DNA of 39,997 nucleotides from a virus: IMG/VR virus record IMGVR_UViG_3300047476_000208, positions 1-39,997 of that record; one strand, written 5' to 3'. The first letter of the stretch is position 1; every line of letters starts with the position of its first letter. Made by a program: the position numbers and the translations under genes. Under the pieces are notes generated by a model, which saw only the letters and a list, made by a program, of their open reading frames with translations, was not told the origin of the DNA and searched no databases. Below are positions 10,918 to 13,823 of the stretch, piece by piece.

Positions 10918-10938
10918 GGTTTGATTCTCCTGTTAATG

Positions 10939-11115
10939 TTAATCGAGGTGTAAGTGATGGCTATTACCATCGTGATCGATGTCGGCATTCCGAGCCTCTA
11001 AAGCCACCAGAGTGAAGTTATCAGGGTCTTTTGACACGAACTGATTAGCAAGTGCCTCACTATCAAATGAGCCGTAAATTGAGCCGTTTTTGTCTTGAAC
11101 ATAAAAGTATTGCAT
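10939..11115 (-). CDS. First gene of the leftward block, small protein (58 aa)
   Basis: The ORF is 58 residues with SD AAAGGA. It begins MQYFYVQDKNGSIYGSFDSE, has a strand-helix pattern and ends in a His/Asp-rich tail. It is the first gene downstream of the leftward promoter, after a leader of about 390 bases. Confidence 0.65.
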   Translation of the reverse strand: MQYFYVQDKNGSIYGSFDSEALANQFVSKDPDNFTLVALEARNADIDHDGNSHHLHLD

Positions 11116-11292
11116 GGTGAATCCTTTCTTATCTACTGTTGATCAATACTGCTTACCCTCTATGCTGAGGCTTTGCCACCAATTCGTCTAATTGTATTTT
11201 TTAATCGTGTTGCGATTGTTAATAGTTTTTAGCTAATTCCTACGAGCTGTGCGATATTACTTTTAGTAATGTTTTGCTGTGTCTTTATACTT

Positions 11293-11304
11293 AGGGTTTA
11301 CCCT
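11293..11304. repeat. AGGGTTTACCCT motif, copy 1
   Basis: A 12-base self-complementary motif (AGGGT, TT, ACCCT), repeated exactly at 11397-11408. Hairpins CTCGA-AAA-TCGAG and AGGCG-AAAA-CGCCT lie between the copies. All are in the predicted leader of the leftward transcript. Confidence 0.5.
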
Positions 11305-11396
11305 CGAAAATCGAGATCGATAGCGTGGTGATAGTAACCCCTCAACTTAGGCGAAAACGCCTCTAAAGCCCTGTATTGCAGTCTAAACAGTATCTC

Positions 11397-11408
11397 AGGG
11401 TTTACCCT
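11397..11408. repeat. AGGGTTTACCCT motif, copy 2
   Basis: This is the second exact copy of the 12-base motif at 11293-11304, 104 bases away. Confidence 0.5.
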
Positions 11409-11515
11409 ATGTCTATGCACTATCATGGTGCTATGTAGTGTCAATCTAGGTTTACTATGTTGCACTAAATAGGTGCATCATCGCCTCATACATCCACGCT
11501 ATTGACCCTACAAAG

Positions 11516-11543
11516 CCTATAGTTTTTACCTATGATATGTCAA
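11516..11543 (-). promoter_or_regulatory. Leftward promoter of the early block
   Basis: On the minus strand, TTGACA (11543-11538), a 16-base spacer and TATAGG (11521-11516) are seen. The predicted start is near 11509. A second TTGACA at 11444-11439 lacks a good -10 box. Confidence 0.6.
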
Positions 11544-11566
11544 CTTAGCTTGACTGTTGCGTAGAA

Positions 11567-11625
11567 ACAACACTGTTGATCTATACAGTGCTGTTGTTCT
11601 ATACAGTGTTGTATAAAAACAACAC
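11567..11625. repeat. Iteron-like cluster of ACAACAC / GTGTTGT cores
   Basis: Core sites lie at 11567-11575 (ACAACACTG), 11586-11597 (CAGTGCTGTTGT), 11604-11612 (CAGTGTTGT) and 11619-11625 (ACAACAC). The middle two sit in an 18-base tandem repeat beginning TCTATACAGTG. The last two form a perfect 7-bp hairpin around ATAAAA. The cluster lies just upstream of the leftward promoter. It could be an operator array or an initiator binding site. Confidence 0.6.
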
Positions 11626-11686
11626 CGGGGGGAGGGTATGTGACTGTAATGTAATATTGGCGGAGCCGCTATAGCATACAAAATAG

Positions 11687-11723
11687 TAAAAAAGGACTAT
11701 ATTGCACTGCAATGTAAGTCTTT
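11687..11723 (-). terminator. Strong hairpin, leftward intrinsic terminator candidate
   Basis: Positions 11692-11706 pair with 11708-11723 with one bulge and two G-T pairs, around ATTGCA-C-TGCAAT. Read leftward, the stem is followed by CTTTTTT, the layout of an intrinsic terminator. A leftward transcript ending here would have to start between 11,720 and 12,140; I found no clear promoter for it. Confidence 0.45.
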
Positions 11724-11766
11724 GAAATTAAAAGAAGAAGTGACTATGTAAAATAATAATGAAAAT

Positions 11767-11862
11767 GGGACACAGCGAAGCTGGTCTACGAAGTGGAATC
11801 GGCGCACACGAAGTGGTCTCTAGCGTAGGGTAAGCGGAGACCTATCAAGCCGATGGAGTCCC
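11767..11862 (+). ncRNA. Candidate structured RNA element of unknown class
   Basis: A GC-rich island in AT-rich surroundings with nested complementary segments. GGGAC (11767-11771) pairs with GTCCC (11858-11862), ATCGGC (11798-11803) with GCCGAT (11849-11854), and GTCTC (11816-11820) with GAGAC (11837-11841). Three small hairpins have GAA loops: CAGC/GCTG at 11773-11783, CTAC/GTGG at 11786-11796 and CAC/GTG at 11807-11815. The second hairpin needs a G-U pair that works only in the plus-strand RNA. ACGAAGTGG occurs twice. The first loop contains GCGAAGC, known as an unusually stable DNA mini-hairpin, so a DNA role such as an origin is also possible. Confidence 0.5.
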
Positions 11863-11905
11863 GCACCGTAGGGTCTATGCTGTAAATAAAAAAGTAAGAA
11901 AGTAC

Positions 11906-11934
11906 TTGACAAAAATGAAAAAGTATGATATAGT
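11906..11934 (+). promoter_or_regulatory. Strong rightward promoter of the structural block
   Basis: TTGACA (11906-11911), a 17-base spacer ending TGA (extended -10) and TATAGT (11929-11934) are seen. The start is near 11941, leaving a leader of about 200 bases before terminase. It is the best sigma-70 match in the window. Confidence 0.85.
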
Positions 11935-11953
11935 TCGCACTATATAGAACTAT
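11930..11953. promoter_or_regulatory. Dyad overlapping the rightward promoter start
   Basis: ATAGTTC (11930-11936) and GAACTAT (11947-11953) form a perfect 7-bp inverted repeat with a 10-base centre. It spans the -10 box and the predicted start. It could be a repressor operator or a 5'-end hairpin. Confidence 0.5.
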
Positions 11954-11956
11954 GAC

Positions 11957-11984
11957 GATTCGTTAGGGATGATTCGTTAGCGAT
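11957..11984. repeat. 14-base tandem repeat in the rightward leader
   Basis: Two adjacent units, GATTCGTTAGGGAT and GATTCGTTAGCGAT, match at 13 of 14 positions. They lie 16-43 bases downstream of the predicted transcription start. Confidence 0.6.
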
Positions 11985-12086
11985 ATAGGATGATTAATAT
12001 TCTTCTCCTATAGAAACCTCTCCAATAGCGAAAACCCTATATAGTACAGCTGAAGGCTGGATTTTATAGAAAGCAGTTGATAATGT

Positions 12087-12106
12087 CGATTGCTTCGCAA
12101 CAATCG
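12087..12106 (+). promoter_or_regulatory. Leader hairpin before terminase small subunit
   Basis: CGATTG (12087-12092) and CAATCG (12101-12106) pair around CTTCGCAA, or alternatively as TTGC-TTC-GCAA. The hairpin lies 37 bases before the terminase start and may affect message stability or translation. Confidence 0.4.
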
Positions 12107-12142
12107 TTAATTTCTTCGTCTTCCCACTAAGGATAAAAGACA

Positions 12143-12577
12143 ATGTCTGATTCTGTCGAAATAAATACTTCTGTCGTTGAAGTTAAAAAGGAACGACCAA
12201 AGTTAGTTCGTCGTAAAGTAGGTCGTCCGCTAAAGAAGGACATCGAGGCGAAGAAAAAAGGTAACCGTGGCAAAGTCGGTAGACCCGCCGGAGACGCAGC
12301 AAGAATCAATGAGTTCAAAGCTCGCTTGCTTGGAACCTCCGGAGATAAGATTATTGAGACGCTGATTCATAAAGCGTTGGATGTAAACGATAAGGACAAC
12401 ATGGCGGCACTAAAGCTATGTGTCGATAGATTATTACCCCTGTCGGTATTCGATGCCGCTAAGAATAGTGGTTCAACACCGCAGATTAGCATTAACATCA
12501 CTGGACTGAATAGTCCTACCGTTGATGCTGATGTCGTCGATATGGGTGTCGTAGAGGAAGAAGATGACGAGTCTTAA
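12143..12577 (+). CDS. Terminase small subunit
   Basis: It has 144 residues with SD AAGGA. The N-terminal 55 residues are Lys/Arg rich and carry two GRP motifs (KVGRPLKKD and KVGRPAGD) resembling AT-hooks, suited to binding DNA. A helical region follows (about 59-105) and then an acidic tail ending EEEDDES. Position directly before the large subunit, with a 14-base overlap, and the size support the call. It would select viral DNA for packaging. Confidence 0.8.
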   Translation: MSDSVEINTSVVEVKKERPKLVRRKVGRPLKKDIEAKKKGNRGKVGRPAGDAARINEFKARLLGTSGDKIIETLIHKALDVNDKDNMAALKLCVDRLLPLSVFDAAKNSGSTPQISINITGLNSPTVDADVVDMGVVEEEDDES

Positions 12578-13823
12578 CTTCCAGCTGCTAAAGTGGCAGC
12601 AAGATGTCTTTAAGGACCAGACTCGCTTTAAAGTAATTGCTGCTGGTCGTCGCTGCGGTAAAAGTCGTCTAGCAACGATGATGCTGATTATTAAGGCTTT
12701 GGAAGCACCAGAAGGGTCGGCAGTGCTGTATGTGTCGCCAACGCTAGGACAGTCCCGTCAGATTATCTGGGACAGTCTCCTAGAGATTGGTAAGCCGGTA
12801 ATTAAGTCGGCACACATCAACAATCTGGACATCACGCTGATTAATGGTCGTAAGATTCATGTCCGTGGTGCAGATAACAGCGATACCCTTCGTGGTCTCA
12901 GTCTGTATTACGCAGTCCTTGACGAGTGTGCGTTTATTAAGCAAGACACTTGGGAAAAGATTATCCGAGCATCGCTCTCGGACCGTAAAGGTGAAGCGAT
13001 GTTTATCTCGACTCCATCCGGTCGTAATTGGTTCTACGAGATGTACAAGCTAGGCTTTGAAGGAGAAGATCCTGAATGGAAAGCATGGCATTTTACCACG
13101 AAAGACAATGAGACGATTGACCCGAAAGAGGTGGACGCTGCAAGAAAAACGCTCTCGTCGTTTGCCTTCAAACAGGAATACGAGGCTTCGTTTGACAATG
13201 CGGGTCAGGAGATCTTCAAAGAGGAATGGCTTCGTTATGATGAAGATCCGGGGCAGGGCGACTATGTTATTGCAATCGACCTTGCAGGATTTGAGGATGT
13301 GGCGAAGAACGCTGGCGCTTCAAAGAAACGCTTAGACGAATCCGCAATAGCGATTGTCAAGTTAGAAGATAATGGCGATTGGTTTGTAGAAAAGATTATC
13401 CACGGTCGCTGGGACATTAAAGAGACCGCAGGGAAGATTCTAAGGGCAGTACAGGAGTACCAGCCCATCGGAGTAGGAATCGAACGAGGGGCGCTAAAGA
13501 ATGCAGTATCGCCTTATTTAAACGATTTGATGCGTAAGTACAATGTGTATTTCCACATCACAGATTTGACGCATGGCAACAAAAAGAAAACGGAACGGAT
13601 TGCGTGGGCGTTACAGGGACGATTCGAGCATGGCAGGATCACCCTAAACAAGGAAGAAGACTGGAGAGAGTTAGTAGATCAGTTACTCCTCTTCCCAACC
13701 GCTAATGTACATGACGACTTAGTCGATGCCTTAGCGTATGTAGATCAGTTAGCGGTATCCAATTATCAGCAGGATTACGAAGATGATGGGTACGAGACTT
13801 TAGATGTTATTTCTGGATACTAA
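12564..13823 (+). CDS. Terminase large subunit (packaging ATPase/nuclease)
   Basis: It has 419 residues and is complete. ATPase motifs are Walker A GRRCGKS (28-34), Walker B VLDE (118-121) and coupling motif STPSGRN (149-155). The RNase H-like nuclease has D239 (AIDLAG), E307 (VGIERG) and D384/D385 with D388 (HDDLVDAL). It would drive DNA into the prohead and cut the concatemer. The compact size and motif spacing match terminases of small aquatic podoviruses. The start lies inside the small subunit gene. Confidence 0.97.
   Translation: MTSLNFQLLKWQQDVFKDQTRFKVIAAGRRCGKSRLATMMLIIKALEAPEGSAVLYVSPTLGQSRQIIWDSLLEIGKPVIKSAHINNLDITLINGRKIHVRGADNSDTLRGLSLYYAVLDECAFIKQDTWEKIIRASLSDRKGEAMFISTPSGRNWFYEMYKLGFEGEDPEWKAWHFTTKDNETIDPKEVDAARKTLSSFAFKQEYEASFDNAGQEIFKEEWLRYDEDPGQGDYVIAIDLAGFEDVAKNAGASKKRLDESAIAIVKLEDNGDWFVEKIIHGRWDIKETAGKILRAVQEYQPIGVGIERGALKNAVSPYLNDLMRKYNVYFHITDLTHGNKKKTERIAWALQGRFEHGRITLNKEEDWRELVDQLLLFPTANVHDDLVDALAYVDQLAVSNYQQDYEDDGYETLDVISGY

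Follow-up and report, generated by a model that had tools for sequence, protein, structure and literature searches.

The window, by which we mean the whole stretch of 39,997 nt analysed here, carries a control region between leftward replication genes and rightward packaging genes, which thus form divergent arms. The leftward genes encode a family A polymerase, a T7-type primase-helicase of the Toprim type, a 5'-3' exonuclease, a gp2.5-like SSB and endonuclease VII. To the right lie a putative terminase small subunit, for which we found no Pfam or PHROG match, a terminase large subunit and an SU10/P22-like portal. The minimum of the cumulative GC skew lies near 11 kb and coincides with the switch in coding strand. 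From left to right, the control region consists of upstream repeats, a G-tract (GGGGGGAGGG), 25 nt, GGAGCC, an A-run, an A-rich stretch and a GC-rich patch, followed by a sigma-70 promoter and then the putative small-terminase gene (Table 1).

Table 1. Features of the control region and the adjoining packaging genes, in window coordinates
Feature	Position	Strand	Remarks
Two iteron-like AGGGTTTACCCT copies	11290..11408		
Inverted and direct repeats abutting the G-tract (TGTTG..AACAACA; CTATACAGTG twice)	11555..11625		
G-tract GGGGGGAGGG, start of core	11627..11636	+	Fixed spacing in at least 120 viral contigs
GGAGCCGCTA, 25 nt past the G-tract	11662..11671	+	Nearly invariant columns in 99 aligned loci
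A-run ACAAAATAG (ACAAAAAAG in most relatives)	11678..11686	+	99-locus alignment
A-rich stretch with TTGCACTGCAA at 11702-11712; candidate unwinding region	11687..11766	+	
GC-rich modular element (patch plus 13 nt)	11767..11875	+	58-60% GC; modules conserved and reshuffled in relatives
Mini-hairpin CAGC-GAA-GCTG	11773..11783	+	Perfect stem
Mini-hairpin CAC-GAA-GTG, after GCGCA	11807..11815	+	Perfect stem
GCGG(A)GAC / GTC-CCGC, sole near-invariant helix	11834..11864	+	96.6% of cells paired, no covariation
Sigma-70 promoter TTGACA-17-TATAGT, rightward	11906..11934	+	11 of 12 consensus matches
Putative terminase small subunit	12143..12577	+	Named by position only, directly before terL
Terminase large subunit	12564..13823	+	T4-type TerL

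The patch at 11767-11862 had been singled out in an earlier note on this DNA as a GC-rich element in AT-rich surroundings containing two short sequences that each occur twice, and this description holds. Its GC content is 58.3%, against 26% in the preceding and 33% in the following 100 nt, and it lies at the GC maximum among 96-nt stretches of the intergenic region 10918-12142. In the whole window ACGAAGTGG occurs at 11788 and 11808, with two or more copies in 1 of 100 shuffles; CGTAGGGT occurs at 11824 and 11867, a result matched in 10 of 100 shuffles, and its second copy falls just beyond the end originally given for the patch. The element as we define it comprises GGGACA, mini-hairpin modules, GGAATCGGCGCAC, GCGGAGACC, GGAGTCCCGCAC and CGTAGGGTC. 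A coding function was rejected, as only short ORFs run across 11767-11862 and relatives differ by indels.

Searches of IMG/VR with blastn revealed many relatives, with 11640-11900 alignable in dozens of loci. A scan of viral sequences for the G-tract followed by GGAGCCTC, allowing gaps of 18-40 nt, returned at least 120 contigs; among the 120 listed, the gap was 24-25 nt in 113 and 23-26 nt in 119. In bacterial and archaeal genomes the 83 matches to this pattern were scattered over gaps of 18-40 nt, with 5 at 24-25 nt, as chance would give. The 142 core-bearing loci were reduced to 100 by collapsing identical 60-nt cores, and family counts exclude locus L151 and all loci from bacterial or archaeal genome contigs; sufficient flanking sequence was available in 94 loci for GNA hairpins, 97 or 82 for motif counts and the GC profile, and 90 for DnaA boxes. 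The patch forms the downstream GC-rich part of a non-coding control region that many uncultured phages have in common and conserve. In a phage isolate collection, neither 11500-12200 at the DNA level nor the putative small terminase subunit at the protein level had a match. Neither HTVC115P (both stretches, whole record) nor two Manatee Spring records (in the sections examined) contained the G-tract core or a consensus DnaA box, and they are not close relatives.

The GC contrast proved to be a feature of the family, since the profile of 82 loci passes from a peak at the G-tract through an A-rich valley to a second peak at the element and then to a valley at the promoter. The A-rich stretch has a family mean GC of 0.30-0.33 with an excess of A (82 loci), and 26% GC in the window (11667-11766). 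An AT-rich region thus adjoins the core, as in DnaA-dependent origins, and is a candidate for unwinding. Two loci, L198 and L226, retain the core but lack the GC-rich element, the small-terminase gene following at a short distance. In these and three further loci (L252, L223 and L238) the A-run side of the retained core resembles CCCCCTCTGAAAAAG, which is complementary to part of the G-tract.

Within the element, relatives present a mosaic of interchanged small modules. Both slots, after GCGCAC and after CCGCAC, could be parsed in 25 of the 100 loci, and these contained nine combinations, among which ACGAAGTGG and CGTAGGG each occur with both CGGAGGG and AGCCCTGCTGG. Exchange of modules by recombination would produce such combinations, and would also explain the two copies each of ACGAAGTGG and CGTAGGGT in the window.

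Upstream of the core, the related phages carry clusters of DnaA boxes. The consensus box TTATCCACA occurs 76 times in the 500 nt preceding the G-tract (90 loci, 44.8 kb) and is absent from a further 193.9 kb of DNA of the same loci, while 300 letter-permuted versions of the box averaged 0.52 copies upstream of the G-tract, with a maximum of 22. Boxes are present in 24 of the 63 loci outside the window's subclade, 21 of these 24 having at least two. None was found in the 29 window-like loci, nor in the window itself; the window-like loci carry other repeats at this place, AGGGTTTACCCT and TGTTGTATAAAAACAACA. TAAACCCTA is found in 27 of 90 upstream regions. We also observed that a hairpin precedes the G-tract in relatives at the place of 11555-11636, with arms that vary in sequence and remain complementary (TGTTG...CAACA versus GATAG...CTATC).

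The earlier note had drawn attention to small hairpins with a GAA loop, of the kind of the stable GCGAAGC DNA mini-hairpin. Across 94 loci, GNA triloops on stems of at least four pairs numbered 45 on the + strand against 15.3 in shuffles (sd 4.4), and 12 against 7.7 (sd 2.7) on the - strand. The roughly threefold enrichment on the + strand lends that suggestion modest support, but the excess at motif positions is small. After the 51 distinct motif sites, stems of at least three pairs were present in 47% of cases against 22% in shuffles (0 of 500 shuffles as high), whereas for stems of at least four pairs the figures were 14% and 6% (26 of 500 as high), so that the hairpins may not be the functional feature; no excess of the GNA loop was detected at these 51 sites. 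Small hairpins are therefore modestly favoured at motif sites. At the place of the hairpin at 11773..11783, relatives have AGTC-GTA-GACT or CAGAC-GAA-GTCTG, and by eye other stems differ in sequence at the same place with pairing kept (CACC-GCA-GGTG, CAGC-CCT-GCTG and TAGC-GAA-GCTA). Plain sequence motifs give a stronger signal than the hairpins. Of 97 loci, 73 contain GGGACA, and its 91 copies, none of them on the - strand, compare with 6.7 expected; the family-level excesses of GNA hairpins and of motifs such as GGGACA are inflated, as close relatives are not independent. On the - strand, GTC after the core is about twofold over expectation (728 versus 359, 97 loci), probably by way of GGGACA and TTGACA on the + strand.

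Three known classes of site were considered for the hairpin modules and set aside. T7-type primases use the sites TGGTC and GGGTC. A site of this type after each hairpin does not fit, as GGTC follows three hairpins here and often reads GGAC in relatives; the pentamers showed no clear enrichment, at most twofold (TGGTC 21 versus 10.7, GGGTC 8 versus 10.0). Promoters of N4-type virion RNA polymerases are GNA-triloop hairpins, but the longest ORF of the window has 682 aa, and a giant virion RNA polymerase is therefore not seen in this record. Finally, CsrA-type GGA hairpins were considered as a candidate, with ACAGGATG in some relatives, and dropped.

Taken together, we lean towards the view that the element is a DNA-level module of a replication origin, in this phage and in a large group of uncultured phages, and the patch is best read as a protein-binding or mini-hairpin module acting as DNA. 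In favour are the fixed spacing of the G-tract, the DnaA boxes, the divergent arms with their skew minimum, the replisome genes, the GC profile, the GNA hairpins and GGGACA. For this phage we infer origin activity from its relatives and the shared architecture. The suggestion in the earlier note of a DNA structure at an origin thus gains indirect support from the core of fixed spacing and from the clustered DnaA boxes of related phages; its mini-hairpin part has modest support, the excess at motif positions being small. Against an origin stand the lack of DnaA boxes in the window's own subclade, the constant position of the site upstream of the terminase genes, as for a packaging site, the absence of the element from L198 and L226, the small excess of anchored hairpins, and primase pentamers that are not clearly enriched.

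In such an origin an initiator, either DnaA or a phage protein, would bind the repeats that precede the G-tract. Opening of the DNA might then follow at the G-tract/GGAGCC/A-run core and the A-rich stretch, exposing a + strand that carries the GC-rich module. In this strand GGGACA, and GCAC followed by a small GNA-loop hairpin and GGGAC or GGTC, could provide binding or mini-hairpin sites, at which the T7-type primase-helicase of the phage, as the presumed binding protein, would be loaded or would prime.

The position of the site could also be that of a pac site, at which the small terminase subunit would bind the G-tract core, the motifs upstream of its own gene, or both, and headful packaging would start. 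Indeed, the small-terminase gene, named by position, could be matched in 92 unique loci, and in all 92 the core lies upstream of it on the same strand; the remaining 8 of the 100 loci, without a match, extend at most 683 nt beyond the G-tract. A T4-type TerL and an SU10/P22-like portal are compatible with headful packaging, long contigs span the site and break at scattered places, and contig ends are raised in its vicinity (16 of the 120 listed contigs, within 300 nt upstream of the G-tract). However, these nearby ends are scattered from 11 to 281 nt upstream, the element is absent from some relatives that have the core, and packaging leaves the clustering of DnaA boxes at the same place unexplained. 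We therefore consider a pac site rather unlikely. The scattered ends themselves perhaps stem from imprecise cutting during packaging, or from assemblies that broke off where the sequence is variable or repeated.

Alternatively, the motifs might form an operator array, at which activators or repressors would control the strong rightward promoter at 11906-11934. About 30 nt separate the end of the element from the -35 box, the sequence of short repeated motifs such as GGGACA is conserved, and a similar promoter follows in most loci (at 200-300 nt after the G-tract in 56 of 100 loci and at 300-400 nt in 26 of 94). Since such an array explains neither the fixed spacing of the G-tract nor the DnaA boxes, we regard it as unlikely as the principal function. 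Both a pac site and an operator array are compatible with the presence of an origin.

A structured non-coding RNA read from the + strand, the other possibility raised in the earlier note, is very improbable. The branched shape proposed there does appear when the + strand is folded as RNA, with GGGAC/GTCCC, ATCGGC/GCCGAT and GGTCTC/GAGACC helices and small hairpins, one of which contains the predicted G-U pair, and GNA hairpins are enriched mainly on the + strand. Compared with shuffled sequence, this RNA had a slight excess of stability (z = -1.90, 6 of 200 shuffles as stable), and the - strand less (z = -0.74, 40 of 200); with DNA parameters there was no clear excess (z = -0.86, 39 of 200 on the +; z = -1.21, 23 of 200 on the -). 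In relatives (83 loci with enough flank, 61 after removal of redundancy) the mean z of the element was -0.99 on the + and -0.81 on the - strand, an excess that is at most small because control windows, comprising other non-coding and coding sequence, scored nearly alike on both strands (-0.36 to -0.79 and -0.30 to -0.82, respectively), and that shows no clear preference for one strand.

Nor did the compensatory changes that a conserved fold predicts appear in relatives. In an alignment of 27 sequences, 25 of them distinct, the inner helices, ATCGGC/GCCGAT and GGTCTC/GAGACC with the GC/GC pairs that they enclose, paired no better than column shuffles (69.8% of cells versus 69.9%); the whole alignment held one double change in them, and no covariation above shuffles. 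The shape of the fold in the window therefore stands, but the conservation of its inner helices does not. The outer GGGAC/GTCCC helix lies outside this alignment and by eye is kept in many, not all, relatives. RNAalifold retained GCGG/CCGC alone, whose pairs are invariant and hence uninformative either way on structure; together with ATCGGC/GCCGAT, GCGG(A)GAC/GTC-CCGC would form a pseudoknot. Rfam gave no match at gathering score within the window. A search restricted to the sigma-70 consensus revealed no conserved promoter in the 500 nt before or the 200 nt after the G-tract (0-4 of 89-98 loci per 100-nt bin over the upstream 500 nt), the window itself having a weak match, 9 of 12, at 11728. 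As relatives are a mosaic of swapped modules and lack a conserved upstream sigma-70 promoter, the element does not look like a conserved folded RNA. A cos site, with its cohesive ends fixed at the G-tract, deserves hardly any weight: a GC-rich tract upstream of terminase genes and two contigs beginning 11 and 18 nt before it would fit, but the contig ends in this vicinity do not coincide, and the long contigs continue through the site.

Returning to the preferred reading, that of an origin, we compared the region with known systems. Origins of the oriC type in bacteria and phages resemble it in that, in related phages, clusters of TTATCCACA lie by a conserved GC-rich tract and an AT-rich stretch; unlike them, the window's subclade has no DnaA boxes, and to our knowledge a fixed G-tract/GGAGCC/A-run core is no part of oriC. 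The comparison with ColE1 used as query a string that we take to be the ColE1 origin, and which matched 4583 plasmid records. The G-tract, GGAGCCT and A-run follow one another in the ColE1-type R-loop origin, where the A-run is a cleavage site, and in mitochondrial CSBII as they do in the phages, a likeness that we treat as resemblance only; for CSBII the R-loop comparison is that of a passage in PMC6317783. In contrast to the 24-25 nt of the phages, the gap after the G-tract is 1 nt in ColE1. The phages also lack a conserved upstream sigma-70 promoter for a primer RNA, which argues against a ColE1 mechanism.

In RSF1010 oriV, initiator repeats are followed by a GC-rich part, an AT-rich part and small primase hairpin sites. 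The phage region has the same order of repeats, GC-rich sequence, AT-rich sequence and hairpins, a likeness of arrangement. A passage in PMC4538821 describes ssiA and ssiB as the recognition sites of RepB', an AEP-type primase, whereas the primase-helicase of this phage is of the Toprim type.

We recognised no described phage origin of the G-tract/GGAGCC/A-run kind in the open-access literature. It is conceivable, if quite unlikely in this specific form, that the region represents an undescribed type of phage origin, in which a ColE1/CSBII-like R-loop core would be joined to an exchangeable cassette of GNA mini-hairpins serving as single-strand priming sites and reshuffled by recombination. 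Such an origin would take in the G-tract, the fixed gap of 24-25 nt, GGAGCC and the A-run, and the large uncultured group with T7-type replisomes. If the origin reading is right, the G-tract, 24-25 nt and GGAGCCTC would constitute a signature with which to search for the region controlling replication in many uncultured phages, which have no close isolate in the collection searched, and would allow direct tests of how replication is started by phages with T7-type replisomes and no evident RNA polymerase. It would also mean that a patch foldable in a single genome need not be an RNA, but can be a mosaic of DNA motifs.

Finally, we noted further small hairpins in the terminase leader. In the window, 12047-12106 contains two terminator-like hairpins, one with a TTCG loop, in an insert that is absent in several relatives. 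In three other loci (L207, L220 and L142) the leader, downstream of the promoter, contains extra units of AATCTGCAC and a mini-hairpin, for example CCTC-GTA-GAGG.
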